Source: a virus. From it: a DNA stretch of 57,188 bases. A model generated the notes under the pieces. That model ran no database searches. It saw only the letters and a program-made list of their open reading frames with translations, and was not told the DNA's origin. Every line of letters starts with the position of its first letter. Position 1 is the first letter of the stretch. Where the stretch lies: the IMG/VR virus record IMGVR_UViG_3300032236_000645, positions 1 through 57,188 of that record. The stretch is one strand, 5' to 3'. Positions 228-50,380 of the stretch are shown one piece after another. Both the position numbers and the translations under genes were made by a program.

Positions 228-2264
228 TTATTTACTAGTTGCTCTGTAAGTGCCATCCCAATTTTCTGGTTTGCCTTCTTCCATACGCTCTATCATATTA
301 GCATAGTATTGGCGCATTTCTGGTGGTGATGTCTTAGTTAATTGTTTAGCTAAGAATATTGCGCCACCTTCGTCCCAATTACCATCATAATACGCTTTCA
401 AATATTTCTTATGTAGTTTGTAATGGTCTTCGTGATATGTTGCTAAAGTGAATATTTTAACACCTTCTTTTTTACCTTTAACAGCAATACAGTCTAATTC
501 TATAACAGGATATTCATCTTTTACTTGCTCTGCTGTGTCTGACCCGAGGACCATTTTGACACCGTATGGCTTACTTTGTCCTTCAAGGCGTGAGGCGAGA
601 TTAACCGAATCTCCGAGGCAGGTGTAGTCAAAACGCTGACTAGAACCCATATTACCAACCACAACAGTGCCTGTATTAATGCCGAGTCCCATACCAAACG
701 CAGGTATGCCCTCTTTCTCAATCTCCTTGTTAAACGCATCTAAACTCTCCATCATTTCTAAGGCAGTCTTTACCGCCATCTTGGCATGGTTTGGTTCATC
801 TAAAGGTGCGTTCCAAAATGCCATTTGTGCATCACCAATATACTTATCCAAAGTTCCATTATTTTCTATTATTTTTGCGGTCATTGCAGTCATATAACGG
901 TTCATAATTTGCGTTAGACCTTGAACATCTTTTCCATAGTGTTCCGAAATTGTAGTGAAACCACGAACATCGGTAAACATAATAGATAATTCTCTACTTT
1001 CACCACCAAGTTTAAGTAACTCTGGATTCTTTTGAAGTTTTTCAACCAAAGCAGGTGATAGATATGTGCCAAATTGTTTTTTAATTTGTAACTTTTGATT
1101 TAACTCTGTAATGAATTTTACGGTGTATGCGTGTGCATAAACCAATACAATAGAAAGAATAGGATAAGTGACATCCACCAAAATGTTTTGCTTATTAAAT
1201 AGAAATAAGCTAGCATAAATGCTACCAGCAACAATGCCAAATATGCCCAAATATCCATGTTTCCAACGTGTCAAATAAATCGCTAATATAGAAAGAACAA
1301 TAATACCTAAAATTTCTGCACCATCTGCCCAATCTGGACGTTGTATATTTATACCATTAGCAATTGTTCCAATAAGTGATGCTTGAATGTCTTGTGGATA
1401 AACAGCACCAACTGCAGTTGATAATGGATTACTGAGACCGGCAGCGGAAACTCCAACTATAACAATTGAACCACCAAAGTCTTTAGGTAAATCAACAGCG
1501 GAGACTGATTGTGATTTTTGTGACCAGTCAACCCACACACGACCAAGAGCATCTGTTGATATAGGACCAAATTTAGGAATACGCATCTTTTCTACACCAC
1601 CTTCAAATAGTTTTACTTGAATAGTGGAATCACCAGAAGCAACTCTTAATGTTTCTAATGCTAAGTTTGGATATACTTTACCGTTGTATGTTGAAACTAA
1701 TGGAATTCTACGATTAACACCATCTAGTTCTGGTAATGTATTAGTTGAACCAACACCAGCGGCCGCTTCTTCCAATTCGGGAATATTCGCAATTACACCA
1801 GTATACTGGATGATTTGATTCATGTAGTCTGAACCAATAATAGCAGAACCTGGACTCTTTGGTGTGTTTTTGGTTACATTAGAAGGTGTGTTAGCGATAA
1901 CAACTGGATGATTTTTGAATACGGATGTTAACGCTGAGTCACCACCAAGTCTATCTTTTTCAGGCATCAATACATTAAATACAACTAAACCGGCATTATG
2001 TTTGTATAGGTCTTCAATTAGATTGGCATAGACTTGACGATTGAAAGGCCATTGGCCATATTTGTCTAATGTCTTTTCATCAATATTGACTGTGTAGATA
2101 TTGTTTTGTGTTGGTGCTTTTTGTGTGATTAAGGTATCAAAGTACCGTAATTTGATTGACTCTACAAATGTTGGATCATTAAAACGGACAACTACTAGAA
2201 GTGATAGTGTTGCTAATGCTGTCCATGGATTGAGTAGAATCTTTGTTATTTTCTTCAAGTTCAT
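228..2264 (-). CDS. CHASE2-domain class III adenylate cyclase, membrane-bound
   Basis: Predicted to make cAMP from ATP in response to a periplasmic signal. Residue numbers count from the in-frame ATG at 2270. There is one N-terminal TM helix (about 12-30), a periplasmic CHASE2 sensor (about 35-310), three TM helices (about 318-386) and a C-terminal catalytic domain (about 425-610). All catalytic residues are visible: metal-binding D434 in FTDVRGFT and D480 in KYIGD, adenine-selecting K476 and T550, and transition-state N557 and R561. The K/T pair favours adenylate over guanylate cyclase. The start at 2264 is chosen because AAAGG sits 8 nt before it, but only 2 nt before the ATG at 2270. It is the last gene of the curli-like operon, 21 bp after the FecR gene. 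CHASE2 cyclases beside FecR proteins are known in bacteria; one in a phage late operon is unusual. Confidence 0.92.
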   Translation of the reverse strand: MNLKKITKILLNPWTALATLSLLVVVRFNDPTFVESIKLRYFDTLITQKAPTQNNIYTVNIDEKTLDKYGQWPFNRQVYANLIEDLYKHNAGLVVFNVLMPEKDRLGGDSALTSVFKNHPVVIANTPSNVTKNTPKSPGSAIIGSDYMNQIIQYTGVIANIPELEEAAAGVGSTNTLPELDGVNRRIPLVSTYNGKVYPNLALETLRVASGDSTIQVKLFEGGVEKMRIPKFGPISTDALGRVWVDWSQKSQSVSAVDLPKDFGGSIVIVGVSAAGLSNPLSTAVGAVYPQDIQASLIGTIANGINIQRPDWADGAEILGIIVLSILAIYLTRWKHGYLGIFGIVAGSIYASLFLFNKQNILVDVTYPILSIVLVYAHAYTVKFITELNQKLQIKKQFGTYLSPALVEKLQKNPELLKLGGESRELSIMFTDVRGFTTISEHYGKDVQGLTQIMNRYMTAMTAKIIENNGTLDKYIGDAQMAFWNAPLDEPNHAKMAVKTALEMMESLDAFNKEIEKEGIPAFGMGLGINTGTVVVGNMGSSQRFDYTCLGDSVNLASRLEGQSKPYGVKMVLGSDTAEQVKDEYPVIELDCIAVKGKKEGVKIFTLATYHEDHYKLHKKYLKAYYDGNWDEGGAIFLAKQLTKTSPPEMRQYYANMIERMEEGKPENWDGTYRATSK

Positions 2265-2285: not shown

Positions 2286-3383
2286 TTATTTTATGTTTTG
2301 CCTTATTGTAATATAACCTTGTGGTTTATTTGCAAATTGAAATACATCCATAACCAAATCTTGTATTACCACAATTTGGACTAAAGAATCCTTTGGTAAT
2401 ATAATATTTGCTTCTTGACCTTTTGAGTCGGATACACCAAAATATTTCCAACCAGTTAAAACTTGTTTCTCATAAATTGGCGTAACTCGTGTGCTTTCTG
2501 CTGTTAATTCCTCTACTGATTTTTGTATAATTGGAACAACTTTAACTACTTGATTATCAACTTTATTTGTGCTTTGTTGAGCAATCTGTGATTCTTGTTC
2601 AGCATTTGCACCTGAAACACCAGTAGATGGTGTATTATTCTTTTCTGCCGACTTTTCTTGTGATGATTTTTGAGCATCTTTGATTGCATCACGTGCAGCT
2701 GTTACTAACGAAGCGCCACCTTCAGTTTTGGGTGGAACAACTTGCATATTATTACTAACTTGACGAGAATCGAATCTAATCAAAGTTGGCATTGGAGGTG
2801 AATTGCCTGAAGATTCTACAACCGTTGCTTGATATGGTTTATTCATAACAACTGCACCAGCTGGCGTTACTACTTCAATTTCACCAGATTTACAAGTTAA
2901 CGCCTCGATACTTAAATTAGTGTCATCACATTGAGGCATTAATACAATAATAGAACGACCAATTTCATCTACAGACATAACAAAGTCAGTACCTCGAACG
3001 GCAATAGTGGCTGTTGGAGTATTTATTTTAACATTATTGGGGTTTTCGTGAGCTACTGCACCTGAAGCGTACCGAACGGTACCGAGGGCGACTTTCATGG
3101 CTAATTTACCAGTACCCTTAGATTTTGGATCATATACAAAATCATCAATAACTAATTTAGAATTTTCAGTAACACTAACCTTAGTATCATCCACAAAAGT
3201 GATACTTGTTTTACCTTTACCGGTCACAACAATATCCAACATCTCTACCGAAGCACCTTTGGTACTAGGTAGAGAATTCTTTTGTCGTTGAATATTACTT
3301 GAACCTTCTTGTTCAGTTATTGTTCCAACAGCCGAATAAACAATAGTTGGAATAACCAATAACAATAACGCAAGATATTTCAT
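2286..3383 (-). CDS. secreted FecR-domain protein
   Basis: 365 aa with a signal peptide (about residues 1-18, ending VYSA), so it should be periplasmic. A FecR domain spans about 40-140, with the family signature TPTATIAVRGTDF near 125-138. A Ser/Gln/Asn-rich low-complexity stretch (about 230-280) links to a C-terminal region that ends in a small beta-rich segment. FecR domains act as periplasmic sensors or scaffolds and often sit beside CHASE2-containing kinases or cyclases. Here the gene overlaps the curlin-like stop codon by one base (TAATG), so translation is probably coupled. I infer that it links the state of the CsgG/curlin export machine to the CHASE2 cyclase encoded next. It could instead be a structural part of the secreted assembly. 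Confidence 0.82.
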   Translation of the reverse strand: MKYLALLLLVIPTIVYSAVGTITEQEGSSNIQRQKNSLPSTKGASVEMLDIVVTGKGKTSITFVDDTKVSVTENSKLVIDDFVYDPKSKGTGKLAMKVALGTVRYASGAVAHENPNNVKINTPTATIAVRGTDFVMSVDEIGRSIIVLMPQCDDTNLSIEALTCKSGEIEVVTPAGAVVMNKPYQATVVESSGNSPPMPTLIRFDSRQVSNNMQVVPPKTEGGASLVTAARDAIKDAQKSSQEKSAEKNNTPSTGVSGANAEQESQIAQQSTNKVDNQVVKVVPIIQKSVEELTAESTRVTPIYEKQVLTGWKYFGVSDSKGQEANIILPKDSLVQIVVIQDLVMDVFQFANKPQGYITIRQNIK

Positions 3384-4144
3384 TAGTTCGTTTGGCGAAC
3401 CACAAATGACCCGTTATTACTTACTGATTTAATATTAATCACATTGTCAACTGTACCAGTTTGTGACATAGTAAAATCATTATGTGTACCAATTAAATCA
3501 ACAGCAATAGAATGGCCAGATGCACCACCATTTAGTTGTGTTACATTGAATGTGTTATAATCACCAGTAACATTTAAGTTTTGTGTAGCTTTAGGTGCTT
3601 GTACATTGAAATTAAAATAGTTGTGGTCACCAGTTACATCAATACCTGAATTTTGATTTGTACCGCCACCATTGTAATACATTGTATTGTTATTACCTGT
3701 AAATCTCCAATTAAACACAGAACTATCACAGTTAGCATTAGTACCAGCGCCACAATTAAAGTCAAGGTAGTTTGAATTACCTAATTGTTGAATTGTTGTA
3801 TTGATACCAACGGTTGCACCATAGATGCTACCGTAAATAGAATTGTTATTACCAGTTTGGATTGATACTAATGTTTGGTTATCACCTCTTAATTTGAAGT
3901 AATTTGAACCAACACCCAATACATTAGAAGAACCTGTTTGAGTAATATTGATGTCTGGATTGCCACCAGATTGGTCAATATACACTTTATTGGTTGAAGT
4001 TTCCGCTGCTGATGTCACCTCATTTGGTGTATCTGCTGGAATTGCCGGTACTACCGGACTTGGTGGCAATACCACTGCTGGGTCTGCCGCAATCGCTTGT
4101 GTTGCTAATAACGAAAACATTACTATTGCTAGTAACTTTTTCAT
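3383..4144 (-). CDS. curlin-like (CsgA/CsgB-type) secreted repeat protein
   Basis: 253 aa with a signal peptide (about 1-20, ending AIAA) and a Pro/Ala-rich linker (about 20-45). The rest is rich in Asn, Gln, Gly, Thr and Ser. Repeats of about 20-24 residues match the curlin pattern in which a Q-x-G-x-x-N turn follows an alternating hydrophilic strand: ITQTGSSN, IQTGNNN, QQLGNSN, TGDHN, TGDYN, IGTHN, SQTGTVDN. Such repeats form the amyloid beta-solenoid of curli. It lies 3 bp from csgG and directly upstream of the FecR gene. The repeats are more degenerate than in E. coli CsgA, so it may form a different solenoid. Its linkage to CsgG and CsgF makes it their likely substrate. Confidence 0.82.
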   Translation of the reverse strand: MKKLLAIVMFSLLATQAIAADPAVVLPPSPVVPAIPADTPNEVTSAAETSTNKVYIDQSGGNPDINITQTGSSNVLGVGSNYFKLRGDNQTLVSIQTGNNNSIYGSIYGATVGINTTIQQLGNSNYLDFNCGAGTNANCDSSVFNWRFTGNNNTMYYNGGGTNQNSGIDVTGDHNYFNFNVQAPKATQNLNVTGDYNTFNVTQLNGGASGHSIAVDLIGTHNDFTMSQTGTVDNVINIKSVSNNGSFVVRQTN

Positions 4145-4147: not shown

Positions 4148-4936
4148 CTACTCTCCTTTATGTTTAAACTTCCAAAGTTTTTTAGTTTCACCTTGTTTAA
4201 TTAATTCCACAATACCTTTTTCAATTGCAGCTCTTGTTGCATATTGAATTGGCTCATTGTAAGTCTGTGAAGCATCAATTTCTAATGCTTTTGTTCCTGT
4301 GTCGTAAAATTTCATAACAGTTGTTCCATCACCAGTTGACAGAATATTCTTTTCAATTGTTACTGAAGCTAAAACTTCACCAGTTTGTACAGACACTAAT
4401 CTCATATTAATAGTCACTTGGTCCTGGCTGTATTGAGTATAAGGACCAATTCCTAATAATCTAATACCTGCCCCACCCGTTCTTGTATTACTATCATACC
4501 CGATAATACCACCTTCTAAAATTATACCAGCAAATAATAGTGGAGGTAATTCTTGTTTGTCGCCAAATTGTTCTCTCATTTGGCGAATAATCTGTCTTTC
4601 TTTAATTAAGTTATCTAAACCACCACGTTCAGTAACTCTAAACCATTTACCATTTCCAACATCTTGTAATGCTTTAACAACATAAGCATCAGCACCTTGT
4701 GTTACGGCAGTTGAGAATAATGATAATGTTGTTGAAGGTTTTCTTTGTCCTGTTTTGTCAGTAAATGTATAAACAGCAATAGTAATTGGTTGACCTTCAG
4801 GTTCAGCAATATTATTAAACTCACTTACAACAGGTTTTGATATTTCTGAATCACTGCGAATATCAACATCTTGTAATGGTCTAACAGAAGAACATCCAGA
4901 TAATAATATAAAAATTAATATTAATAGTTTTTTCAT
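4148..4936 (-). CDS. csgG: CsgG-like outer-membrane curli secretion channel lipoprotein
   Basis: 262 aa from ATG 4936. A TTG six codons upstream is in frame but would spoil the signal peptide; an AGAGATGAT stretch precedes ATG 4936. A lipobox (LLSGC) ends the signal peptide, giving an acylated Cys for outer-membrane anchoring. Family motifs are clear: IAVYTFTDKTGQRKP near 55, STAVTQGADAYVVKAL near 82, then ERGGLDNLIKERQIIRQMR near 108, followed by the beta-barrel-forming regions. Length agrees with E. coli CsgG (277 aa precursor). The channel exports curlin subunits as an oligomeric pore. It lies between csgF and the curlin-like gene with gaps of 3-7 bp. CsgG homologues are, as I recall, known from some marine T4-like phages. 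Confidence 0.93.
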   Translation of the reverse strand: MKKLLILIFILLSGCSSVRPLQDVDIRSDSEISKPVVSEFNNIAEPEGQPITIAVYTFTDKTGQRKPSTTLSLFSTAVTQGADAYVVKALQDVGNGKWFRVTERGGLDNLIKERQIIRQMREQFGDKQELPPLLFAGIILEGGIIGYDSNTRTGGAGIRLLGIGPYTQYSQDQVTINMRLVSVQTGEVLASVTIEKNILSTGDGTTVMKFYDTGTKALEIDASQTYNEPIQYATRAAIEKGIVELIKQGETKKLWKFKHKGE

Positions 4937-4943: not shown

Positions 4944-5441
4944 CTAAAAAGCAAATTGAGCTATAGGCACTGAAACATATGTTTTATTACCAGCAGCATC
5001 TACCACTGTTAATTGAACATCTGTTGCGGTTTTTAACCAAGTAACCGTACTACCATCTAATGAAAAATTACCAGTAACGGGACCAGAACAACCAGAAATA
5101 GGTGCACCGTCCGTACCTTTACAATTATTTTGAAATAAATTATTACTTAATTGAGTAGCAAGTTGAGCGTACACTTGACTCGAAAATAATGACATGAATT
5201 TTGCCAATGGTGTATTTTGTGCTGCCGCGGCAGCTGCTGCGGCTCGTGCAGCTGCTTGATTTTCAAGAGCTTGTTTAGCTGATTGTTCAGCTTGATAAAC
5301 TGTTAATACTTGGGTTGTCCAACCGCCATTATTGTTGAAGGATGGATCTTTAAATTGTTGTTGAATTTCAGTTGCGGACGCAACACTATTCAGGCTCAGA
5401 ATTGCGATTACGCTTATTGACAGTCTTTTTATTTGGATCAT
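4944..5441 (-). CDS. csgF: CsgF-like curli assembly factor
   Basis: 165 aa, signal peptide about 1-23 (ends ASAT). The mature start contains FKDPSFNNNGGW, matching the CsgF hallmark F-x-N-P-x-F-G-G that plugs the CsgG channel and narrows its exit. A following helix includes VYAQLATQLSNNLF, and the C-terminus DVQLTVVDAAGNKTYV resembles the CsgF C-terminal strands. Unusual additions are a polyalanine-rich helix (about 66-76) and a pair of Cys (NNCKG, SGCSG) that may form a disulfide. It starts inside the preceding gene (56-bp overlap) behind GAGAG and ends 7 bp before csgG. The linkage to csgG supports the assignment. Confidence 0.85.
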   Translation of the reverse strand: MIQIKRLSISVIAILSLNSVASATEIQQQFKDPSFNNNGGWTTQVLTVYQAEQSAKQALENQAAARAAAAAAAAQNTPLAKFMSLFSSQVYAQLATQLSNNLFQNNCKGTDGAPISGCSGPVTGNFSLDGSTVTWLKTATDVQLTVVDAAGNKTYVSVPIAQFAF

Positions 5442-5673
5442 TTTCTTGCTCTCTCAACATCAATACGATGTTTATTTTCTGATTTAATCTTATCAAATCA
5501 TTATCTAACATACGTACACGGTCTATCAAAGCAATTAAAACGGTATTAGCTTCTGACAATACAGGTTTAATTTCCTGTGTTGCCCATTTCCAAACATAAA
5601 ATATAAGATATCCCATGCCACCGGCAGCAACAATTGGGAAACCGTACTTATTAACTAAATCTACTACATCCAT
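5386..5673 (-). CDS. small one-TM coiled-coil protein, holin-like topology (copy 2)
   Basis: 95 aa. A short amphipathic N-terminus precedes one TM helix (about 12-32), a helical region with ALIDRVRMLDNDLIRLNQK, and a basic/polar tail. It is a paralogue of the gene just upstream: both share the GFPI start, the TM position and the helix with D-R/N-R-V-x-x-(L/M)-(D/N). It overlaps that gene by one base (TAATG) and overlaps csgF by 56 bp, so the three are translationally coupled. The topology recalls BhlA/UviB holin-like proteins; similar small proteins occur in marine T4-like phages. Whether it makes holes, anchors the curli machine or does something else is unknown. Confidence 0.75.
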   Translation of the reverse strand: MDVVDLVNKYGFPIVAAGGMGYLIFYVWKWATQEIKPVLSEANTVLIALIDRVRMLDNDLIRLNQKINIVLMLREQENDPNKKTVNKRNRNSEPE

Positions 5674-5951
5674 TAATCTCTCCTCGCATCGTTTTTACCA
5701 TCAGCACGAGCAATACGGTCTACGTCAGGTTTAACACCCATTGCGTTAGACATTAATGTATCAATACGAATAACATCATGGTTCATGGTCTTGACACGGT
5801 TATCTAAAGCCGTTATAATCCCACTTAAACCTTTTACTGAACTCATTACTCCAGCAAGGATAAATTTTAATGTTAGAAACACAAAGTATCCACCAGCCAT
5901 TGCAGCAGCAATTGGAAAACCTAATTCAGCAACTAATTTAAAAAAGTCCAT
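5673..5951 (-). CDS. small one-TM coiled-coil protein, holin-like topology (copy 1)
   Basis: 92 aa and first gene of the curli-like operon. It has the same plan as its downstream paralogue: short N-terminus with LGFPIAAAMAGGYFVF leading into one TM helix (about 10-34), then a helix containing ALDNRVKTMNHDVIRID, then a charged tail. AAGG lies 8 nt before the ATG, and a T4-late-type CATAAATA element sits about 27 nt upstream (minus strand). Function is unknown. The position suggests the pair is made together with the CsgFG channel, perhaps as inner-membrane partner or as holin. Confidence 0.75.
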   Translation of the reverse strand: MDFFKLVAELGFPIAAAMAGGYFVFLTLKFILAGVMSSVKGLSGIITALDNRVKTMNHDVIRIDTLMSNAMGVKPDVDRIARADGKNDARRD

Positions 5952-41895: not shown

Positions 41896-42318
41896 ATGGC
41901 AGTTATGAAACCCAATGACCCATTTCAACCACTCACTGGCGGTGCCGCTGATATTTCCCACGCATACGACCATGATATCAGTATCTCCGCTGCGGTTCCG
42001 TCATCTTACGTAGATATTGGCAATATGTCAACACCTTACACCTTGAACGAAACGTATATCTTAGATAAGGCGAAGCCACATCTTTACCAGTCTTCGGAAA
42101 TCGTAGATATGGTTATGTACGAAAAAGTAACAGACGAAAGTATATTAAAGGAAAATATTCGAGCTGGGCTACGCCTTCAGATGGCACAGAACCTAACCGA
42201 GAACATGACCTTTACACGTGTCAATGACTACGCAAACGACAACATGATTATACATGGAAGGTGTTATGCTTTTACTAGAGAGCAACTGTTAGATTTTGTA
42301 AGAGAAATCAATAAATAA
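41896..42318 (+). CDS. conserved hypothetical protein
   Basis: 140 aa, 32 bp after the VWA gene with AAGGA upstream. The N-terminus is Asp/His/Ser-rich (PLTGGAADISHAYDHDISIS) and the C-terminal half is mixed helical (LRLQMAQNLTENMTFTRVND). I do not recognise a family. It is probably co-transcribed with the VWA gene. Confidence 0.65.
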   Translation: MAVMKPNDPFQPLTGGAADISHAYDHDISISAAVPSSYVDIGNMSTPYTLNETYILDKAKPHLYQSSEIVDMVMYEKVTDESILKENIRAGLRLQMAQNLTENMTFTRVNDYANDNMIIHGRCYAFTREQLLDFVREINK

Positions 42319-42351
42319 TTCCTTTTCACACCCATCCCAAAAGGAAACGCA

Positions 42352-42546
42352 ATGCAATCAACCCATGACAAAATCACGGATGCTATAGTATTACTGTATG
42401 AAATCGCCACTGATATGAAAACATCTCCATTATCTCCTAGAGTAGAGATGCTCGCCTTAGAGTTAAACAAAGTATCCAAAGAGTACCATGAAGAATTATC
42501 TAATAAGAAAATGTATGATACATCGAAGATTGTTATAGGACTGTAG
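42352..42546 (+). CDS. small helical hypothetical protein
   Basis: 64 aa, helical, behind AAAAGGAAAC. No cysteines or TM. It starts a run of three short genes that closes the rightward block before the strand switch. No family recognised. Confidence 0.6.
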   Translation: MQSTHDKITDAIVLLYEIATDMKTSPLSPRVEMLALELNKVSKEYHEELSNKKMYDTSKIVIGL

Positions 42547-42550
42547 GCCT

Positions 42551-42739
42551 ATGAAATCACTCTCTCACGGTAAGGTTGGGAATATCAAGATGCGTGGACG
42601 GAAGACTTGCTCTGCCGGTTGTACCTGTTGTGACGTTCAAAACTTTAAAGACAGAGAACGTGAGAGAGAGTTACTCAAAGAGATACTGGAATGGAATAGT
42701 ACCAAGTACGGTACAGGTCCTTTGTTAGGAGAGTATTAA
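42551..42739 (+). CDS. small Cys-rich protein, possible zinc binder
   Basis: 62 aa. CSAGCTCCD near 21-28 clusters four Cys that could bind a metal. A charged helix (FKDRERERELLKEI) follows. It overlaps the next gene by one base (TAATG). The function is unknown. Confidence 0.62.
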   Translation: MKSLSHGKVGNIKMRGRKTCSAGCTCCDVQNFKDRERERELLKEILEWNSTKYGTGPLLGEY

Positions 42740-42954
42740 TGCCTCTTAGAATAACCAATGAATGTCCTCTGTGTATGTTAGAGATACACCAATACTCTAT
42801 GGGTTGTGATGGGTGTGATACTCGAAGGTTGATTAATGAATTTGCTCAGATGGTTGTAGCGGATACTAATAGACGCTTTGAGGAAGAAAGAGTTAAGTTT
42901 TACAACGAGGTCCTGGCGGATTCCCGGCCGGCAAAAAATTCTGAAATCACGTAG
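42739..42954 (+). CDS. small zinc-finger-like protein
   Basis: 71 aa. C9-x2-C12 (CPLC) and C23-x2-C26 (CDGC) make a compact zinc-ribbon candidate, followed by a helical C-terminal half. It is coupled to the upstream gene and is the last rightward gene before the leftward early cluster. Confidence 0.65.
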   Translation: MPLRITNECPLCMLEIHQYSMGCDGCDTRRLINEFAQMVVADTNRRFEEERVKFYNEVLADSRPAKNSEIT

Positions 42955-43020
42955 AGTTGGGTAGCGGTGGCAGTTACGTCACCCATCGTTTCGCCATGGC
43001 ACGCAATCCAATACTATACG

Positions 43021-43052
43021 GGGGCTGCCGCCTTACACTTGACGGCAACCCC
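43021..43052 (-). terminator. possible hairpin terminator of the leftward cluster
   Basis: GGGGCTGCCG and CGGCAACCCC form a 10-bp stem with one wobble-type mismatch directly after the last leftward gene. No T run follows on the minus strand, so it is either a weak terminator or an mRNA 3'-end stabilising hairpin. Confidence 0.45.
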
Positions 43053-43067
43053 TAATCGTGTTATAAT
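43039..43067 (+). promoter_or_regulatory. promoter pointing antisense into the leftward cluster
   Basis: TTGACG (43039-43044), 17-bp spacer, perfect TATAAT (43062-43067). It overlaps the stop of the minus-strand gene 43061-43246 and would transcribe its antisense strand. The -35 lies within a hairpin formed by GGGGCTGCCG (43021-43030) and CGGCAACCCC (43043-43052). Confidence 0.6.
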
Positions 43068-43246
43068 CCAAAGCTTGCTGCTTTAACGCTGCTTGGCCGA
43101 CTACCACCAACCACGTAACCGCCGCTGCTCTTACTGCGCATTTTCTGCCTTGGTGCTTTAACGCTCTTGCATATAGTGACCTTGACTCCGCTAATTGCCA
43201 AGTCTGCTAGTGATGCTAATGCTATTCTTTGCTCTTGCTTAGTCAT
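43061..43246 (-). CDS. small basic protein
   Basis: 61 aa, starting behind AAGGAC. N-terminal helix (TKQEQRIALASLADLA), then a basic Ser/Gly-rich tail (KAPRQKMRSKSSGG). No family recognised. It is the last gene of the leftward cassette that starts at 43807. Confidence 0.6.
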   Translation of the reverse strand: MTKQEQRIALASLADLAISGVKVTICKSVKAPRQKMRSKSSGGYVVGGSRPSSVKAASFGL

Positions 43247-43255
43247 ATATTGTCC

Positions 43256-43450
43256 TTATTGATATGGGTTAGGGTTACGTGCTTCGTATTGGTTAGAGGG
43301 ATATACCATGGATGGCTTATATGCCTCTGCCTCGCCGCCGTTATTAGGCACTATATGGATCATAGTGCGACCTATACGCTTAACGGTGCCAAAGCGTGTG
43401 GTGTAGGCATTCAATTGGATGGCTACGTGTTGTCCGATGCTTAGTTCCAT
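43256..43450 (-). CDS. small beta-rich (SH3-like) protein
   Basis: 64 aa, behind GGAGA. Strand pattern IGQHVAIQLNAYTTRFGTV followed by RTMIHIVPNN looks like a small SH3/KOW-type barrel. The C-terminus is disordered. It lies one base after the 46-aa membrane protein. The function is unknown. Confidence 0.6.
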   Translation of the reverse strand: MELSIGQHVAIQLNAYTTRFGTVKRIGRTMIHIVPNNGGEAEAYKPSMVYPSNQYEARNPNPYQ

Positions 43451-43451
43451 A

Positions 43452-43592
43452 TTAGTCTCCTATTAGCATGCCTACGAATATCATGCCTGAGGCGACTAAC
43501 ATACCATAACCGACACCTGCCATTTGACCTGAAGCACAACCTACTAGAAAGGCGACTATAGCGCCTGCTGTTGCTATTAGTGTGATTTTCAT
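43452..43592 (-). CDS. very small membrane protein
   Basis: 46 aa. Two hydrophobic, Gly/Ala-rich segments with VAFLVGCASG at about 13-22 resembling a lipobox-like Cys. AAGGAGG lies about 7 nt before the ATG, a very strong SD. It is coupled to the upstream gene by TAATG. It could be a small lipoprotein or a two-helix membrane peptide. Confidence 0.65.
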   Translation of the reverse strand: MKITLIATAGAIVAFLVGCASGQMAGVGYGMLVASGMIFVGMLIGD

Positions 43593-43807
43593 TATACTGC
43601 CTCCTTAGTGTAGAGGATAATAGCTTTAACACCGATGATGGCATTTAGTTCGGCACCGTCACGGTCATGGTATGCCATAAACTCACGGACCTTAGCATTG
43701 TCAAATTTTGATTTTTGTAGCTCGTCTCTGATAGCGATTGACCATGCTGTGCAGCTGTTGATTAAGCCTGCCATTAGTGTTGCTTGTTTTTTAGATAATT
43801 TTGCCAT
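43592..43807 (-). CDS. small hypothetical protein, first of a leftward cassette
   Basis: 71 aa, AGGAGAG upstream. Helical N-terminus (KLSKKQATLMAGLINSC), then a basic/acidic segment DRDGAELNAIIGVK. Driven by the repeated early promoter at 43837-43864. Four genes follow each other in this cassette (43807 down to 43061). Confidence 0.62.
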   Translation of the reverse strand: MAKLSKKQATLMAGLINSCTAWSIAIRDELQKSKFDNAKVREFMAYHDRDGAELNAIIGVKAIILYTKEAV

Positions 43808-43836
43808 TTGTTTCTCTCCTGATTAAGTATGGGTCC

Positions 43837-43864
43837 ATCCTACACTAACTGGAGGGAAAGTCAA
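43837..43864 (-). promoter_or_regulatory. repeated early promoter (leftward)
   Basis: Minus strand GCTTGACTTTCC, 16-bp spacer, TAGGATGG (-10 at 43837-43842, -35 TTGACT at 43859-43864). One of the dispersed near-identical promoter copies; the -10 is weaker than in the others. Confidence 0.7.
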
Positions 43865-43878
43865 GCACTTTCGAGCCT

Positions 43879-44169
43879 TTATCGGCCTGTACCGAAGCCA
43901 TTCCAAACGCTACCATCTCGACCATCATAAGAAGTCACACCGCTGTCATGGTTATAACCAATCAATTCCCAAACATGGTTTTTCCATATTTTGAAGAATA
44001 CAAGCGGAGTAACCTTAGCTGGTTTGTCACTCTTCCGATTAATACTAATAAGCCACAATGTTACATCAAAAGACAATAACATGCCTCGAAGTATATGGTA
44101 AGCGATATAAGCAAGGATTAAACTTAATACACCTAAAGCGACAATACCAGTAATTTCTAACCAATTCAT
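43879..44169 (-). CDS. small membrane protein
   Basis: 96 aa, AAAGGAAAC upstream. One or two N-terminal TM segments (about 5-32), then a basic region with FFKIWKNHVWELIGYNHDSG. It has its own promoter copy at 44203-44230. No function known. Confidence 0.68.
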   Translation of the reverse strand: MNWLEITGIVALGVLSLILAYIAYHILRGMLLSFDVTLWLISINRKSDKPAKVTPLVFFKIWKNHVWELIGYNHDSGVTSYDGRDGSVWNGFGTGR

Positions 44170-44202
44170 TTTGTTTCCTTTGTTTCGTTAATCAATGGTT
44201 GG

Positions 44203-44230
44203 ATTATACAGAAACTGGAGGGAAAGTCAA
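44203..44230 (-). promoter_or_regulatory. repeated early promoter (leftward)
   Basis: TTGACT (44225-44230), 16-bp spacer, perfect TATAAT (44203-44208) on the minus strand. Confidence 0.88.
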
Positions 44231-44244
44231 GCACTAAATTGGTA

Positions 44245-44547
44245 TTAATAGCGGTGGCGGTAGCGAAAAGGAACAGGTTGGCCATGGTAGCTCGTATTGT
44301 AGACCGTTGTGCGGTCACCAGCTAAAATTGAGCCTACCACAATACCGCCAAGGGCACCAATAACCATGCCTTCGGTGCTTGACATTTGGCTCTGGGCCTG
44401 ATATACTGGCTGGCTTTGTTGGACTACCACTGGTTGGTCACAGCGATAGAGCTGGATGCCATTCTGGTCAAGGCCTACTGGCTGACAATCGGCCATGGCA
44501 CTGAATGAAAGGGAGGCTACTAGAGCGCCTGCAATTATTCTTTTCAT
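44245..44547 (-). CDS. secreted glycine-zipper protein
   Basis: 100 aa from ATG 44547, which has GGAG upstream; the longer frame is not credible. A signal peptide (about 1-19, ending AMA) is followed by a Gln/Val-rich segment and the glycine-zipper GALGGIVVGSILAG (about 65-78), typical of 2TM-glycine-zipper envelope proteins. Two Cys may pair. It may insert in the host outer membrane or periplasm early in infection, for example in superinfection exclusion; that is inference. Confidence 0.75.
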   Translation of the reverse strand: MKRIIAGALVASLSFSAMADCQPVGLDQNGIQLYRCDQPVVVQQSQPVYQAQSQMSSTEGMVIGALGGIVVGSILAGDRTTVYNTSYHGQPVPFRYRHRY

Positions 44548-44548
44548 A

Positions 44549-44704
44549 TTATACTCCACAAGCTTGATAAAATCTGGCAAAGTCAAAGCGAGGGTTGCTC
44601 TGACGGCAAACCTCTGCCATTTGGATCGCCATTGTTTTGCGCTCTACTAGATTGCTGATAGCGGCGATTTGGTCGGCGATAGCCTTAAAATCTTTTCTGG
44701 TCAT
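44549..44704 (-). CDS. small helical phage protein
   Basis: 51 aa starting at ATG 44704. The sequence TRKDFKAIADQIAAISNLVE leads to the C-terminal SNPRFDFARFYQACGV, a tail common to many small phage proteins of this kind. It ends one base before the glycine-zipper gene. A conserved hypothetical protein often seen in phages. Confidence 0.75.
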   Translation of the reverse strand: MTRKDFKAIADQIAAISNLVERKTMAIQMAEVCRQSNPRFDFARFYQACGV

Positions 44705-44705
44705 A

Positions 44706-44990
44706 TTATAAAACCTTTCCTGTAACATTATACTTATTTTTTAAGAATGCCAAGGCACTCTCTACGGTTGGTCGAGCAGCCTCTGTACGGCCATCACCAT
44801 TTACTGCCATAAACTTGCCACGTGCTTCTTTATAGAATACTGTAAATGGTTCAAGTTTGGCTTTTGGTGCTTTTGCCACTTTCACTGCCTTTGGTGCTTT
44901 CGCTTCTACTTTTACAGTAGCCTTAGCTTTCGCTGGCACTTTGACTGGTTTTGGTGCTACCACTTGGTTTACTAGATTTGATAAGTTCAT
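44706..44990 (-). CDS. small protein with C-terminal EAARPT domain (paralogue A)
   Basis: 94 aa from ATG 44990 (AGGAGAC upstream); the longer frame overlaps the promoter and is not real. A Lys/Ala/Val/Pro-rich linker (about 12-50) precedes a folded C-terminal domain with KFMAVNGDGRTEAARPT and ALAFLKNKYNVTGKV. This domain is closely similar to the C-terminus of the rightward gene at 47841. The linker could be disordered and basic, perhaps binding nucleic acid. Confidence 0.75.
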   Translation of the reverse strand: MNLSNLVNQVVAPKPVKVPAKAKATVKVEAKAPKAVKVAKAPKAKLEPFTVFYKEARGKFMAVNGDGRTEAARPTVESALAFLKNKYNVTGKVL

Positions 44991-45018
44991 TTTTTGTCTC
45001 CTGTTTAAGTATGTGTCC

Positions 45019-45046
45019 ATTATACATGGATTCCAGAAAAAGTCAA
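45019..45046 (-). promoter_or_regulatory. repeated early promoter (leftward)
   Basis: TTGACT (45041-45046), 16-bp spacer, TATAAT (45019-45024) on the minus strand. It drives the EAARPT-domain gene at 44990. Confidence 0.9.
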
Positions 45047-45049
45047 GCA

Positions 45050-45241
45050 TTATTTGGTTGCCATAATTGAAACATCAACCAAATCTAAGCCCACAAATTT
45101 AAGCATGGTTTCAATCTCGGCTTTGTTCATATGATCCAGAGCCACGGCCATCATATGGATCAAATCGTCATGCTCAATATGCTTTAGAGCCAGCTCTGTA
45201 TTTCTTCTGGCTTCGTATAGTTCGGTACTGGCTTGGCTCAT
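45050..45241 (-). CDS. small helical hypothetical protein
   Basis: 63 aa with AAAGAGAAAATC upstream. Helices SQASTELYEARRNTELALKH, then HMMAVALDHMNKAEIETML, and a short C-terminal strand. Single-gene cassette with its own promoter at 45271-45298. Confidence 0.62.
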   Translation of the reverse strand: MSQASTELYEARRNTELALKHIEHDDLIHMMAVALDHMNKAEIETMLKFVGLDLVDVSIMATK

Positions 45242-45270
45242 GATTTTCTCTTTCGTTTTAGTATGGTGCC

Positions 45271-45298
45271 ATTATACATGGATTCCAGAAAAAGTCAA
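45271..45298 (-). promoter_or_regulatory. repeated early promoter (leftward)
   Basis: TTGACT (45293-45298), 16-bp spacer, TATAAT (45271-45276) on the minus strand. The 16-bp spacer is identical to that of the copy at 45019-45046. Confidence 0.9.
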
Positions 45299-45321
45299 GC
45301 ACTTTATTGGTTTATTTTCGC

Positions 45322-45350
45322 TTGACTTTTCGAGCTGGCTGTGTTATACT
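45322..45350 (+). promoter_or_regulatory. promoter pointing antisense into gene 45349-45693
   Basis: TTGACT (45322-45327), 17-bp spacer, TATACT (45345-45350). It sits exactly at the 3' end of the leftward gene and faces into it, so it would make antisense RNA. Confidence 0.6.
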
Positions 45351-45693
45351 ATAAGGCTCTATTGACTACAAATTTAATATCTTCAAGAGCAGTCTGTAAG
45401 TCATTGATTCTGCACTCTTTTTCTTCTAGCTCTACTTCTAGTTCGGCCACTTGAAACTCTGTGCGACTGAGGACTAGCTGTAACTCATTGATTTCACTCT
45501 CTTTTTCTTCGTTATCTAAAGTGATGAGCCCGAAGTCTTTATCAAAAGCTTCTTGTAAGTCATTGATTTCTTTATCTTTTTGTTTGATAATGTCATCTAA
45601 TAATGCTAATTGATTAAGATAGTATAAGTCACTGTTTTGACTAGTTTTTTCAACATACTCTAAGCCGTTGATTACAATAGATAATTTTTTCAT
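45349..45693 (-). CDS. coiled-coil protein
   Basis: 114 aa from ATG 45693; the longer open frame runs through promoters and is spurious. It starts KKLSIVINGLEYVEKT, then a continuous Glu/Lys/Leu coiled coil (about 35-105) with three related units of the type K(E/D)x-INDLQ / SEINELQ / CRINDLQ. Two single-base-related repeats give it internal periodicity. Driven by the promoter at 45731-45758; an antisense promoter lies at its end. Confidence 0.7.
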   Translation of the reverse strand: MKKLSIVINGLEYVEKTSQNSDLYYLNQLALLDDIIKQKDKEINDLQEAFDKDFGLITLDNEEKESEINELQLVLSRTEFQVAELEVELEEKECRINDLQTALEDIKFVVNRAL

Positions 45694-45730
45694 AGTGTTT
45701 TCTCTTTCTGTTTCGTTATTCAATGATGCT

Positions 45731-45758
45731 ATTATACACTGATCCATAGAAAAGTCAA
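45731..45758 (-). promoter_or_regulatory. repeated early promoter (leftward)
   Basis: TTGACT (45753-45758), 16-bp spacer, TATAAT (45731-45736) on the minus strand, for the coiled-coil gene. Confidence 0.9.
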
Positions 45759-45791
45759 GCATTATTTCGGATTTTATTTGCAAAAAAGTGC

Positions 45792-45819
45792 TTGACTTTT
45801 TGGCCGGTTGTGATATAAT
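45792..45819 (+). promoter_or_regulatory. repeated early promoter (rightward, non-coding unit 1)
   Basis: TTGACT (45792-45797), 16-bp spacer, TATAAT (45814-45819). No ORF with an SD follows before the next promoter. Confidence 0.9.
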
Positions 45820-45898
45820 GGAACCACGCCACCCCTGCGTGCGGCTTCCACGATAAGTAAAACTTATTGATCCGTCGCAATCAATAAGAAAATAATGC
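45820..45898 (+). ncRNA. candidate structured small RNA 1
   Basis: Begins at the predicted transcript start. A hairpin pairs GGAA (45820-45823) with TTCC (45846-45849) and CACGC (45825-45829) with GCGTG (45837-45841), loop CACCCCT. Next come ATAAGT-AAA-ACTTAT and CTTATTGAT/ATCAATAAG inverted repeats (about 45853-45888). No gene is possible here. Confidence 0.5.
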
Positions 45899-45926
45899 TT
45901 GACTTTTGGTGTGGTTGTGTTATAAT
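45899..45926 (+). promoter_or_regulatory. repeated early promoter (rightward, non-coding unit 2)
   Basis: TTGACT (45899-45904), 16-bp spacer, TATAAT (45921-45926). Again no ORF with SD follows before the third promoter. Confidence 0.9.
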
Positions 45927-46034
45927 GGTTCCACAGTGAGAAAACAAAGAAACCCATGAGCCCACCCCCTGCGTGACGCTTTCGTAGCCCGCTAAGCTCT
46001 TGATTATAAAGAGAAAAATAAACCAAAATAATGC
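45927..46034 (+). ncRNA. candidate structured small RNA 2
   Basis: The segment shares CCACCCC-CTGCGTG-x-CG-CTT with unit 1 and has a GCGT-G-ACGC palindrome (45971-45979) and a CTCTT/AAGAG pair. No gene is visible; it ends at the third promoter. Confidence 0.45.
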
Positions 46035-46062
46035 TTGACTTTTTGGCCAATTGTGATAGAAT
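46035..46062 (+). promoter_or_regulatory. repeated early promoter (rightward, before the tandem repeat)
   Basis: TTGACT (46035-46040), 16-bp spacer, TAGAAT (46057-46062). It would transcribe the 28-bp tandem repeat region. Confidence 0.8.
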
Positions 46063-46094
46063 GGTGGTATTGTTGCGTATCTCAAAAACGCTCA

Positions 46095-46244
46095 GAAAAA
46101 ACTCAATGGAATCAAGAGCTTATGGGAGTGAGAAAAAACTCAATGGAATCAAGAGCTTACAAAAATCTCAATGAAATCAATGGGATAGATGAATTGCTAG
46201 TGAAATCAATGGGTTGGAGAAAACTGAATGAAATCAACGGCTTA
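46095..46244 (+). repeat. tandem 28-bp repeat with decayed copies
   Basis: Two exact 28-bp copies (46095-46122 and 46132-46159), each of the form GAAAAAACTCAATGGAATCA then AGAGCTTA, 37 bp apart. Degenerate copies follow up to about 46244 with AATGAAATCAA(T/C)GG as core. The 37-bp period is not a multiple of three, so this is not a protein repeat. Confidence 0.8.
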
Positions 46245-46395
46245 CAGAATATCGTTGTGGATCAATGAGTTGCGTTGAGTTGCTCTGGATCTGGTTGAGG
46301 AGCCGGCGGCAACCCGTTGAAAGAAAATAAAAAAATCTCGGCAACGAGTTTAACTCCACACGCTAACACACAATGCGACGCAGTTCCCGAGGTCA

Positions 46396-46410
46396 TAAGT
46401 AAAACTTATC
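46396..46410. repeat. ATAAGT-AAA-ACTTAT inverted repeat, second copy
   Basis: A perfect 6-bp inverted repeat with AAA loop, identical to the copy near 45853-45867. Both are followed by (T/C)(G/A)AT-rich sequence, so they may be one protein-binding site present twice. Confidence 0.55.
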
Positions 46411-46556
46411 AATCCAACGGTATTGATATCGCTTGGTATTGTATGGATTCTGTAAGGACGCTGTGGTACACTATGGACACTATCGGTGCTTACTAAGGCA
46501 TTGATTATAATAAGGTTTATATCTACTGTCCTTATACTATCAGGTAGCATATACGT

Positions 46557-46681
46557 TAACCTATTGATTATTATACTCTTATCCTCTACTGTATGGTAAG
46601 GTATTGATATCATTAAGGTAAGCATGAGGTAAACTTTTAGGTAATTATTTTTATTTTTATTGTTTTATAATCAATAGGTTA
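46557..46681. repeat. perfect 15-bp inverted repeat, 95 bp apart
   Basis: TAACCTATTGATTAT (46557-46571) and ATAATCAATAGGTTA (46667-46681) are exact inverses; adjacent bases extend the match to about 17 of 18. The loop contains GGTATTGATATC (also near 46418-46429), and AGGTAA motifs recur through 46595-46691. An origin or regulatory cruciform is possible. Confidence 0.75.
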
Positions 46682-46710
46682 GCGTCAGGTAAAAAATATG
46701 GTGATAATGC

Positions 46711-46738
46711 TTGACTTTCTCCGTGGATTCTGTATAAT
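46711..46738 (+). promoter_or_regulatory. repeated early promoter (rightward)
   Basis: TTGACT (46711-46716), 16-bp spacer, TATAAT (46733-46738), 28 bp before the ATG of the Gp88-like gene with GAGGAG in between. Confidence 0.92.
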
Positions 46739-46765
46739 GGACACATAAATTGATGAGGAGTTATT

Positions 46766-47515
46766 ATGAAGTTATTATCTACAGGCAACCCGAAAGTATT
46801 AAAGGGTATGAAGCAAGGTTATAATACCTATATTCTGCATCTTGCACCTGCTGATTTATCTGGTTATGAAACTTGTCCTAAACGGACTAAGGGATGCACT
46901 GGTGCTTGTTTGAATATGGCAGGACGTGGTGGTATTTTCAAAGTAGGCACTAACACCAATGTTATTCAGGAAGCACGTAAGCGCAAGACTCGTATGTTTT
47001 TTGAGGATCGTGGTCGTTTTATGACTGAATTGGTTGCCGATATTGAATTGGCCATCAAACAATCTGCTAAGTTAGGATTGGTGCCTGTGTTCCGCTTGAA
47101 TGGTACTTCGGACTTATCGTTTGAAAAGTATGAGGTGGTTCGTGGTGGTGTTGGTTATAAGAATATCTTTGAGGCATTCAGTGAGGTACAATTCTATGAT
47201 TATACCAAGGTACTAGGTCGCAAAGTTTCAGGTATCAAAAATTATCACCTAACCTTCTCAGCAGCAGACGGTAACGATAAGGACGTATTGAAAGCAATAG
47301 CACAAGGTTATAATATCGCTATGGTTTTCGGTATCAATAAAAAGTTACCATTGCCTACTGATTATCTCGGTTTACCTGTTTTTAATGGTGATGAAAGCGA
47401 TTTGAGATTTTTAGATCCACGTGGTGTTATCGTTGGTTTGTATGCCAAAGGTAAGGCTACTAAAGATACTAGTGGTTTTGTAAAATATCCAACAATTATG
47501 TTAAAGGCAGCCTAA
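46766..47515 (+). CDS. Gp88-like conserved phage protein
   Basis: 249 aa behind GAGGAG. It begins LLSTGNPKVLKGMKQGYNTY and has a Cys cluster CPKRTKGCTGACLN near 38-51, then mixed alpha/beta regions with VFRLNGTSDLSFE near 110-122. The pattern (start with GNxK, Cys cluster, RLNGTSD) fits the Gp88/DUF7227-like family of phage and plasmid proteins, which I recall being linked to rolling-circle replication. It is the first gene of the rightward early array. Activity unknown. Confidence 0.75.
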   Translation: MKLLSTGNPKVLKGMKQGYNTYILHLAPADLSGYETCPKRTKGCTGACLNMAGRGGIFKVGTNTNVIQEARKRKTRMFFEDRGRFMTELVADIELAIKQSAKLGLVPVFRLNGTSDLSFEKYEVVRGGVGYKNIFEAFSEVQFYDYTKVLGRKVSGIKNYHLTFSAADGNDKDVLKAIAQGYNIAMVFGINKKLPLPTDYLGLPVFNGDESDLRFLDPRGVIVGLYAKGKATKDTSGFVKYPTIMLKAA

Positions 47516-47516
47516 T

Positions 47517-47777
47517 ATGTTTTTATTAAAAGATTATATCAGCAGAGGTACTACCAATCGTGGTTTGAATTTCCCACGAGCATCTATGTATCATGGCATA
47601 CCAATGGATAAGCTCGAGGTAACAAAAGTGGTACTTGCCAATCTATATCCAGAAGGTAAATTCCGTATTAGGTATCGTGGTAAGCGTGCTGGCTATCGTG
47701 ATGGTAGGACTCGGACTCAACACCAACAGGATTGCTTGAAACAATACGCAGAATCCTTTGCTGTTTACTATAGATAA
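47517..47777 (+). CDS. small basic protein
   Basis: 86 aa, one base after the Gp88-like gene. Very basic, with FRIRYRGKRAGYRDGRTRTQ near 48-67, suggesting nucleic-acid binding. No family recognised. It shares the promoter at 46711. Confidence 0.65.
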   Translation: MFLLKDYISRGTTNRGLNFPRASMYHGIPMDKLEVTKVVLANLYPEGKFRIRYRGKRAGYRDGRTRTQHQQDCLKQYAESFAVYYR

Positions 47778-47780
47778 TGC

Positions 47781-47808
47781 TTGACTTATTCCGTGGTTGT
47801 GTTACCAT
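47781..47808 (+). promoter_or_regulatory. repeated early promoter (rightward), decayed -10
   Basis: TTGACT (47781-47786), 16-bp spacer, TACCAT (47803-47808). Conserved flanks show it is a family member; the -10 is likely weak. A GGAG-type SD follows before the ATG at 47841. Confidence 0.65.
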
Positions 47809-47840
47809 GGTTACACTAAATTGATGACGGAGATTATATT

Positions 47841-48290
47841 ATGAATACCCAATTATTAGAAAAGTATGAGGTTCAACCGTTTGCCAACCCAGCGGAGACT
47901 GAGTATTTTATCAAGTACCTAGAGCAAGGCGAGCGCAAAGGCCTCGAAGGTTTGGCCAATGTGGTGTATGCTCGGACTTCTACTACCGAACTATTCAAAA
48001 CCTTACCTCACCTCAAAACCAAGTATGATACAGAACCAGTGCCTAAAGCATTGAAAGCTATCAAACCTCAGGTAACAAAGTCAGTAGTCACTAAGGTAGC
48101 AAAAGTAAAAGCACCTAAGGTACAGATTTTCGGTGATGGTGCCGTATACTTCCGACCAGACCGTAACAAGTGGATGGCAGTATACAATGGCAAGGCAGAA
48201 GCAGCACGACCAACCTCAGCTGCTGCCTTGGCATTCTTAAAGAAAAAGTATGATATTGATGGTTATGTTGTTGATAAAATTGAGGACTAA
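47841..48290 (+). CDS. protein with C-terminal EAARPT domain (paralogue B)
   Basis: 149 aa. The N-terminal region (about 1-70) is unique, then a Lys/Val/Pro-rich linker (about 70-93). The C-terminal domain has KWMAVYNGKAEAARPT and ALAFLKKKYDIDGYV, closely similar to the leftward gene at 44706-44990. The shared domain on both sides of the hub suggests duplication or exchange. The function is unknown. Confidence 0.75.
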   Translation: MNTQLLEKYEVQPFANPAETEYFIKYLEQGERKGLEGLANVVYARTSTTELFKTLPHLKTKYDTEPVPKALKAIKPQVTKSVVTKVAKVKAPKVQIFGDGAVYFRPDRNKWMAVYNGKAEAARPTSAAALAFLKKKYDIDGYVVDKIED

Positions 48291-48292
48291 TT

Positions 48293-48520
48293 ATGACCAA
48301 AGAAATTAAATTGCCGTTTGATTGCACGGTGTATGATGACGAACCACAATTGGTACAAAACCCTTTTAGTGGTGAGACCGTGATGTTGGAACCAATGGCT
48401 ATTGCCGTGTATGATACGGTGATGGGTGCCAATATGATTGGTGACTATAAGACCGTGCAAAAAGGCGTGACATGGTTCCGTAAGTATTTCCCTAAAGAAT
48501 ACATGGTATTATTAGATTAA
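48293..48520 (+). CDS. small hypothetical protein
   Basis: 75 aa, two bases after the previous gene. Mixed alpha/beta, with LPFDCTVYDDEPQLVQNPFSG at the start and a final KYFPKEYMVLLD. No family recognised; part of a run of six short genes (47841-49320). Confidence 0.62.
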   Translation: MTKEIKLPFDCTVYDDEPQLVQNPFSGETVMLEPMAIAVYDTVMGANMIGDYKTVQKGVTWFRKYFPKEYMVLLD

Positions 48521-48530
48521 GGTAAAAATT

Positions 48531-48746
48531 ATGAGATTTGCTCAATTTGAAACAGTAAGTGGTAGTCAGGTAACTATTTTCTTCACTGATAAGGTAACGG
48601 TACACCAATACTACCGAAACCGTGATGGTGGGGATGCCGTATGTGTTATGGATGGTCTACACAATAACGGTGGTTGGGAAGTCAAAGGTACATACCAAGA
48701 GGTAGTGGATAAAATTATGTATGCAAATGAAATGGGAGTGAAATAA
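48531..48746 (+). CDS. small hypothetical protein
   Basis: 71 aa. Starts FAQFETVSGSQVTIFFTDKV, with strands leading to VKGTYQEVVDKI; it looks like a small beta-sandwich or Trp-containing domain. It overlaps the next gene by one base (TAATG). Confidence 0.62.
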   Translation: MRFAQFETVSGSQVTIFFTDKVTVHQYYRNRDGGDAVCVMDGLHNNGGWEVKGTYQEVVDKIMYANEMGVK

Positions 48747-48928
48747 TGAGAGCTGTGGTATATTTGGCAGTAGAATTGGAATATGATAGTTCAGTTTTGG
48801 AAGGTGAGGTAGACCAATACGCCTATGAATTGATGGGAACATTGGCTAGTAACTTCCCAACACCTCCAGCTGGTGTGACGGTAGAGCAAGTAAGATTTGA
48901 TAGCAATGGTGTTGTGGTTTTTGATTGA
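48746..48928 (+). CDS. small acidic protein
   Basis: 60 aa, coupled to the upstream gene by TAATG. Acidic, with VYLAVELEYDSSVLEGEVDQ at the start and a hydrophobic C-terminus. No family recognised. Confidence 0.6.
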   Translation: MRAVVYLAVELEYDSSVLEGEVDQYAYELMGTLASNFPTPPAGVTVEQVRFDSNGVVVFD

Positions 48929-48936
48929 GGTAAAAA

Positions 48937-49113
48937 ATGGCTAAAGGTGATATGGTATACTTGGTGACCAGTTATGGCCGCCATTCTGGTGATGTTGAAA
49001 ACCTTAGGATATATGAGAGTTTGGTTGAGGCTCAATCATTCAAGGATATATTACAAGAGCAGATTGGTATTGATAATTGCATCATTAGTGTTGATAGCTT
49101 TACATTGGAGTAA
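48937..49113 (+). CDS. small hypothetical protein
   Basis: 58 aa read from ATG 48937, with GAGGTAAAAA upstream. Sequence begins AKGDMVYLVTSYGRHSGDVE and ends ISVDSFTLE, mixed alpha/beta. It fills the gap between two annotated genes without overlap and is in the same short-gene run. Confidence 0.65.
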   Translation: MAKGDMVYLVTSYGRHSGDVENLRIYESLVEAQSFKDILQEQIGIDNCIISVDSFTLE

Positions 49114-49116
49114 TAT

Positions 49117-49320
49117 ATGGAAATGTCCGAATATATCAATGAGCAAAACCTCAAGGCGAAACATGACCTTGAAAAGGATATTGCCTATAAGATGGCCAGT
49201 GTAGTGGCCAATCATATCATTAGCCATTATGTGGATGACAAGTTTTATTCGGATGCTCACAATAGTTGGCCTGCTAGGTTTGAGGAAGCTTATAATAGAA
49301 TGTATGGCGAAAGTGCTTGA
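49117..49320 (+). CDS. small hypothetical protein
   Basis: 67 aa, 3 bp after the previous stop with GGAG upstream. Helical with Lys/Glu-rich start, then VVANHIISHYVDDKFYSDAH. The 3' end overlaps the -35 of the next promoter copy. Confidence 0.62.
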   Translation: MEMSEYINEQNLKAKHDLEKDIAYKMASVVANHIISHYVDDKFYSDAHNSWPARFEEAYNRMYGESA

Positions 49321-49344
49321 CTTTTGCCTTGGTTGTGATACAAT
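49317..49344 (+). promoter_or_regulatory. repeated early promoter (rightward)
   Basis: TTGACT (49317-49322), 16-bp spacer, TACAAT (49339-49344), 29 bp before the ATG at 49373. The flanks follow the family consensus. Confidence 0.82.
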
Positions 49345-49372
49345 GGCCACATATTGATACGGAGATTATATT

Positions 49373-49600: not shown

Positions 49601-49630
49601 GTGGTGTTTATTAGGTTAGTGAGTTAGGAT

Positions 49631-49638: not shown

Positions 49639-49642
49639 AGGC

Positions 49643-50356: not shown

Positions 50357-50380
50357 CTTTTACCACAATTAGTGTATAAT
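50353..50380 (+). promoter_or_regulatory. repeated early promoter (rightward)
   Basis: TTGACT (50353-50358), 16-bp spacer, TATAAT (50375-50380). It drives the gene starting at 50408. Confidence 0.92.

Follow-up and report, generated by a model that had tools for sequence, protein, structure and literature searches.

A Divergent Phage Curli Operon with a CHASE2 Adenylate Cyclase and a Probable Built-In cAMP Signalling Arm

Introduction

Curli genes were reported in pelagimyophages in 2020, in a study whose putative freshwater SAR11 myophages were devoid of the curli operon (PMC7029224). In 2022, curli genes were described in the phage Melnitz (PMC9004378), and a full module including FecR, histidine kinase and adenylate cyclase genes was reported (PMC9599517); the latter work already argues for an alphaproteobacterial origin of the module and for monophyly of the phage versions.

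On the bacterial side, a study of Sinorhizobium meliloti describes the receptor cyclase CyaD1, which produces cAMP constitutively when deprived of its CHASE2 domain and whose signal is received by Clr (PMC5498481). The same study reports that a FecR-domain gene, smc02177 (SMc02177), is dispensable for plant-signal perception.

The present analysis concerns a stretch of viral DNA of 57,188 nucleotides (the whole of IMG/VR record IMGVR_UViG_3300032236_000645, positions 1 to 57,188), hereafter the window. Its operon is a new, divergent member of the published marine-phage curli module, cyclase included, and is not the first of its kind.

The Cyclase Gene and Its Sensor Domain

The minus strand of positions 228 to 2270 encodes a protein assigned as a CHASE2-TM3-class IIIb nucleotidyl cyclase (AC) from its reading frame, Pfam domains, key residues, an AlphaFold model and structure matches. 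The frame is unbroken, giving 680 amino acids from the ATG at 2270 or 678 from the ATG at 2264, and the plus strand of the same interval is closed by many stops. The sole ribosome-binding-like motif, AAAGGA, lies 1 nt before the first of these codons and 7 nt before the second, a spacing that makes 2264 the likelier start. The original prediction had placed the gene at 228 to 2264 without giving a strand, which agrees with this start; its residue numbering, kept here, counts from the ATG at 2270. This frame is far beyond chance: homologues in cultured phages are 39–40% identical to it across 85% or more of its length, and those in viral contigs 60–80%.

Pfam CHASE2 matches residues 23–331 (E 3e-41, profile positions 4–256 of 257), well over the cut-off. 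Hydropathy predicts one N-terminal transmembrane segment (TM; residues 10–28), then CHASE2, then three TMs (315–333, 340–358 and 363–381), and a further weak peak inside CHASE2 (269–287) has no helix in the AlphaFold model. Hydropathy and the model helices agree in setting CHASE2 between one N-terminal and three following TMs, so that the full periplasmic sensor and TM set foreseen for this protein are borne out.

Catalytic Domain, Substrate and Activity

The catalytic region is matched by Pfam Guanylate_cyc over residues 426–609 (E 4e-21), also well over the cut-off. A profile built from 46 phage sequences was aligned with Pseudomonas aeruginosa CyaB (3r5g) at 1e-44. In this class IIIb alignment, the metal-binding aspartates D434 and D480, the adenine-selecting pair K476/T550 and the transition-state pair N557/R561, all of which had been predicted to be kept, occupy the same columns as in CyaB, with no gaps nearby and none out of place. 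Across 83 phage cyclases, D434, K476, D480 and R561 are invariant, T550 is found in 81 (the others having D once and S once) and N557 in 82 (S once).

The AlphaFold model, computed from an alignment of 54 rows (window, viral-contig and bacterial), has a mean pLDDT of 91.3 and a pTM of 0.65. Its list of solved-fold matches is occupied by the cyclase domain, so the matches concern that domain. By VIA-align, the model superposes on CyaB 3r5g with Z 23.8 and rmsd 2.1 over 188 aligned residues, and on CyaC 1wc1, solved with an ATP analogue, with Z 23.2 and rmsd 1.8 over 186. Judged by predicted fold, metal aspartates, adenine pair and Asn/Arg pair, the window protein looks fully able to act as a class III (IIIb) adenylate cyclase.

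In class IIIb adenylate cyclases, the adenine pair consists of Lys with Thr or Ser instead of Asp, Thr being the mark of IIIb. K476 and T550 thus point to ATP as the substrate; in the guanylyl cyclase Cya2 (2w01), by contrast, these columns are occupied by E and G. Production of cGMP rather than cAMP might be suggested by the frequent annotation of such proteins as adenylate/guanylate cyclases and by Cya2 itself, which is also a close structural match to the model; however, with an adenine-type pair at the two positions where Cya2 differs, this product is very improbable.

Selection on the gene can be gauged from dN/dS against near relatives, which is about 0.03–0.10 in the linker and catalytic domain (pairs with unsaturated dS) and 0.11–0.19 in CHASE2. 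That the cyclase might be an inactive relic carried along with its operon could be entertained because the literature yielded neither an enzyme assay nor any other biochemical test of a phage member of this group, but it is barely credible given catalytic residues that are essentially invariant in 83 phage sequences and purifying selection that is strongest exactly in the catalytic part. The near-invariant residues, the structure matches and the purifying selection argue that the phage cyclase has very probably been kept active, with cAMP as its presumed product.

The Curli Operon and Its Carrier Phage

The cyclase is the last of seven minus-strand genes, in the order p92, p95, CsgF, CsgG, curlin-repeat, FecR-domain and cyclase. 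Directly upstream of it, at 2286–3383, lies a gene for a FecR-domain protein with an N-terminal signal-like stretch (Pfam FecR 1e-9; phrog_37870). A putatively secreted curlin-repeat (CsgA/B-like) protein is encoded at 3383–4144 (Pfam Curlin_rpt 2.8e-4, which passes the curated cut-off), followed by the outer-membrane curli pore lipoprotein CsgG at 4148–4936 (Pfam CsgG 1.6e-56; NCBIfam CsgG 2e-51, under the equivalog cut-off), whose frame reaches 4954 if begun at a TTG. CsgF occupies 4944–5441 (Pfam 2e-7; phrog_35372). The operon begins with p92 at 5673–5951 (phrog_18771) and p95 at 5386–5673, two small single-TM proteins that appear paralogous by alignment.

On the other side of the cyclase lies a T4-like PolB (phrog_262), with DNA primase and ribonucleotide reductase subunits further on. 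These neighbours indicate a T4-like tailed phage as the carrier and uphold the view that the cyclase is phage-encoded. The T4-like late promoter motif TATAAATA was considered as the operon's promoter and set aside: the window contains two copies where 7.3 would be expected, and neither precedes the operon.

Two further features of the window were recorded. Just past the cyclase stop codon, on the opposite (plus) strand, positions 147–222 hold a tRNA gene with a CAU anticodon read by eye (Rfam RF00005, 52.3 bits; missed by ARAGORN). Positions 42300–57188 have a G+C content of about 0.37–0.45, higher than the rest of the window, and fewer long reading frames.

Phage Relatives and Conservation of the Module

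A tblastn search of the cyclase against 50,697 phage records gave nine matches, six of which are records of HTVC008M and of Melnitz variants, two phages in culture (39–40% identity over 85–96% of the length), the other three being partial and weaker. In IMG/VR, at least 598 viral-contig relatives were found, and BFVD holds a predicted full-length viral homologue, A0A6J5RWB7. Phage genes for making cAMP had been thought rare, a notion contradicted by these numbers, by the annotated cyclases of HTVC008M and Melnitz and by the discussion in PMC9599517. The original prediction thus stands, on sequence grounds, as to a catalytically complete, phage-encoded cyclase; it falls as to rarity and lack of earlier reports, and it had missed the curli/FecR operon around the gene. 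Phage cyclases of this kind are not isolated curiosities.

The surroundings of the gene are strongly conserved. CsgF, CsgG, FecR, p92 and p95 are present in all 52 phage loci with enough upstream flank, and a curlin relative, whose repeats diverge, in at least 42 of them; CsgF, CsgG, FecR and AC follow one another in order on one strand in 44 of the 52. As separate observations, p95 and p92 lie inverted just after the cyclase, not before CsgF, in many phage loci (L019, L020, L026, L028 and others), and in some loci the cyclase is oriented opposite to the curli genes. The phage curli module is therefore rearranged yet kept together.

In a quick maximum-likelihood tree, a branch of support 100 separates 24 phage cyclases from 22 bacterial rows, in agreement with a single phage clade distinct from the alphaproteobacterial cyclases, which are about 36–40% identical; no root was inferred. 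Within this clade, the window cyclase groups with two other phage loci (L003 and L005), and HTVC008M and Melnitz sit together on another branch.

The Small Proteins p92 and p95

In the published module, one or two histidine kinases are placed before CsgF (PMC9599517). If the same genes are meant, p92 (92 aa) and p95 (95 aa) stand at that place, a correspondence by position only that is best taken as a lead; no kinase domain was found in either by Pfam. A search for a named family gave only YvrJ, matched below threshold by six of the 26 members with E 0.005 at best, and this assignment was rejected.

These two proteins bear on another function for the operon, namely a lysis, egress or envelope-permeability device in which the CsgGF pore acts with holin-like p92/p95 and the cyclase, instead of governing fibre production, sets the timing of the event or signals it. 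A role of CsgGF in lysis timing was proposed by Buchholz et al. (PMC9004378), and short single-TM proteins present at every fully flanked locus, with a weak YvrJ match, would suit such a device. However, their holin resemblance lies below any threshold, and a pure pore would have no need of the curlin-repeat protein found in at least 42 of 52 loci, which makes this function unlikely.

Bacterial Relatives and Ancestry

The bacterial relatives of the cyclase come nearly all from Alphaproteobacteria and are 34–38% identical over their best segment. A FecR-domain gene lies directly upstream of the bacterial homologue at 25 of 67 loci, and CsgG is missing from 13 of the 14 searched genomes with such relatives. 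Among 385 alphaproteobacterial genomes sampled, CsgF was matched in six, five of them over the cut-off. Alphaproteobacterial curli operons were also considered as the source of the whole module and discarded: within 19.5 kb around five operons, no FecR or cyclase relative was detected at E 0.01. Relatives that are FecR-paired and poor in curli, together with curli operons containing neither FecR nor cyclase, suggest, in this sample and for these five operons only, that curli and FecR-cyclase were separate bacterial modules joined in phage. The ancestry of the cyclase is thereby narrowed to the FecR-cyclase pair, and an alphaproteobacterial module uniting FecR with a CHASE2-cyclase, like that of CyaD1 in Sinorhizobium, may be the source of the phage cyclase and FecR.

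Four alphaproteobacteria with small genomes of 1.1–1.4 Mb (L117, L118, L140 and L141) carry a CHASE2-cyclase relative; in these, FecR lies some kilobases off on the other strand and gives the top bacterial scores against the phage FecR profile.

A Presumed cAMP Receiver and a Proposed Mechanism

A receptor encoded by the phage itself was sought as a cNMP-binding domain, and none was present in the window record or in the 18 other carrier records, the complete HTVC008M and Melnitz included, many of the remainder being possible fragments. The idea of a phage-encoded receptor was rejected for these 19 records, which means that any cAMP receptor of the searched carrier phages must be the host's. 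All seven searched bacterial genomes carrying a cyclase homologue have cNMP-binding domains. A literature search on cAMP and CRP in SAR11 yielded nothing useful.

The missing phage receptor also accords with a cyclase that shifts the host's global regulation of carbon use or stress through host CRP for the benefit of phage replication, independently of curli and placed in the operon for co-transcription only. The bacterial relatives, mostly curli-free as judged from CsgG, fit this as well; nevertheless, every one of the 52 phage loci with full flanks has curli genes near the cyclase, which speaks against this alternative, and it is distinctly unlikely.

Building on the domains and catalytic residues observed, on the operon, on the conservation and selection seen, on the ancestry group and on the want of a cNMP-binding domain in the searched phage records, the favoured reading is that the phage carries a curli operon, for type VIII secretion, into which a cAMP signalling arm is built; this scheme is probable as a whole. 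During infection, the phage would make a CsgG/CsgF pore and a curlin-repeat protein in the host envelope, along with a FecR-domain protein for the periplasm and, in the inner membrane, a CHASE2 adenylate cyclase. A periplasmic cue may be sensed by CHASE2, whose state would be passed through the three TM helices and a juxtamembrane helix (386–420) to the catalytic domain, which, presumably as a homodimer, would turn ATP into cAMP. The cAMP might then act on a host protein of the CRP/Clr type, retuning host transcription while curli are made; in this way the cyclase would be coupled to curli. Infection by Melnitz showed no clumping (PMC9004378), an observation that tempers the case for curli formation.

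A stronger version proposes a closed loop from periplasm to cytoplasm, in which FecR/CHASE2 reads the state of the phage-built curli pore or the traffic of fibres and, by way of cAMP, informs a CRP-type regulator of the host. Such a loop is doubtful, if still worth entertaining. A simple ligand role of FecR for the sensor is itself questionable given the dispensability of smc02177 for plant-signal perception (PMC5498481). If the loop were true, it would represent a phage-made signalling circuit across two membranes, in which curli and FecR-cyclase, separate modules in bacteria, are brought together. Phage-made cAMP under a periplasmic sensor would by itself, if real, give the virus a direct grip on a global regulator of its host. 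The catalytic site is near-invariant over a large phage clade in which the cyclase is always accompanied by curli, and the receiver is to be sought in the host.

Comparison with Known Systems

Beyond the earlier papers, this work adds the pairing of the bacterial relatives with FecR and not with curli, the absence of a phage receptor from the searched records, p92/p95 devoid of a kinase domain, and the placement of the window cyclase in a tree. As for the catalytic domain, CyaB shares the fold and, by alignment, the six key residues, and CyaC (Spirulina) shares the fold; both are 33–34% identical to the window cyclase in this domain and differ from it in their sensor domains.

By its FecR-domain neighbour and CHASE2 receptor architecture, CyaD1 is the nearest studied case for the window cyclase found so far (PMC5498481). 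That system is bacterial and has its own CRP-type receptor, Clr, nearby, and no link to curli appears in the passages of that study consulted here.

The closest operons are those of phages. The pelagiphage T8SS modules of PMC9599517 have CsgF, CsgG, CsgA/B, FecR and AC co-located in the same order as in the window; that set comprises marine podo- and myophages, whereas the phage subclade of the window is a distinct one. Pelagibacter phage HTVC008M (NC_020484), whose cyclase I899_gp019 is annotated as adenylate/guanylyl, shares the order p92-p95-CsgF-CsgG-curlin-FecR-AC, with a cyclase 40% identical to that of the window over 85%, but has an extra gene between FecR and AC that the window lacks. 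The same order is found in Methylophilales phage Melnitz (MZ577097), whose cyclase is 39% identical over 96%; in Melnitz, a second curlin-repeat gene stands between FecR and AC, whereas in the window FecR is followed directly by the cyclase.
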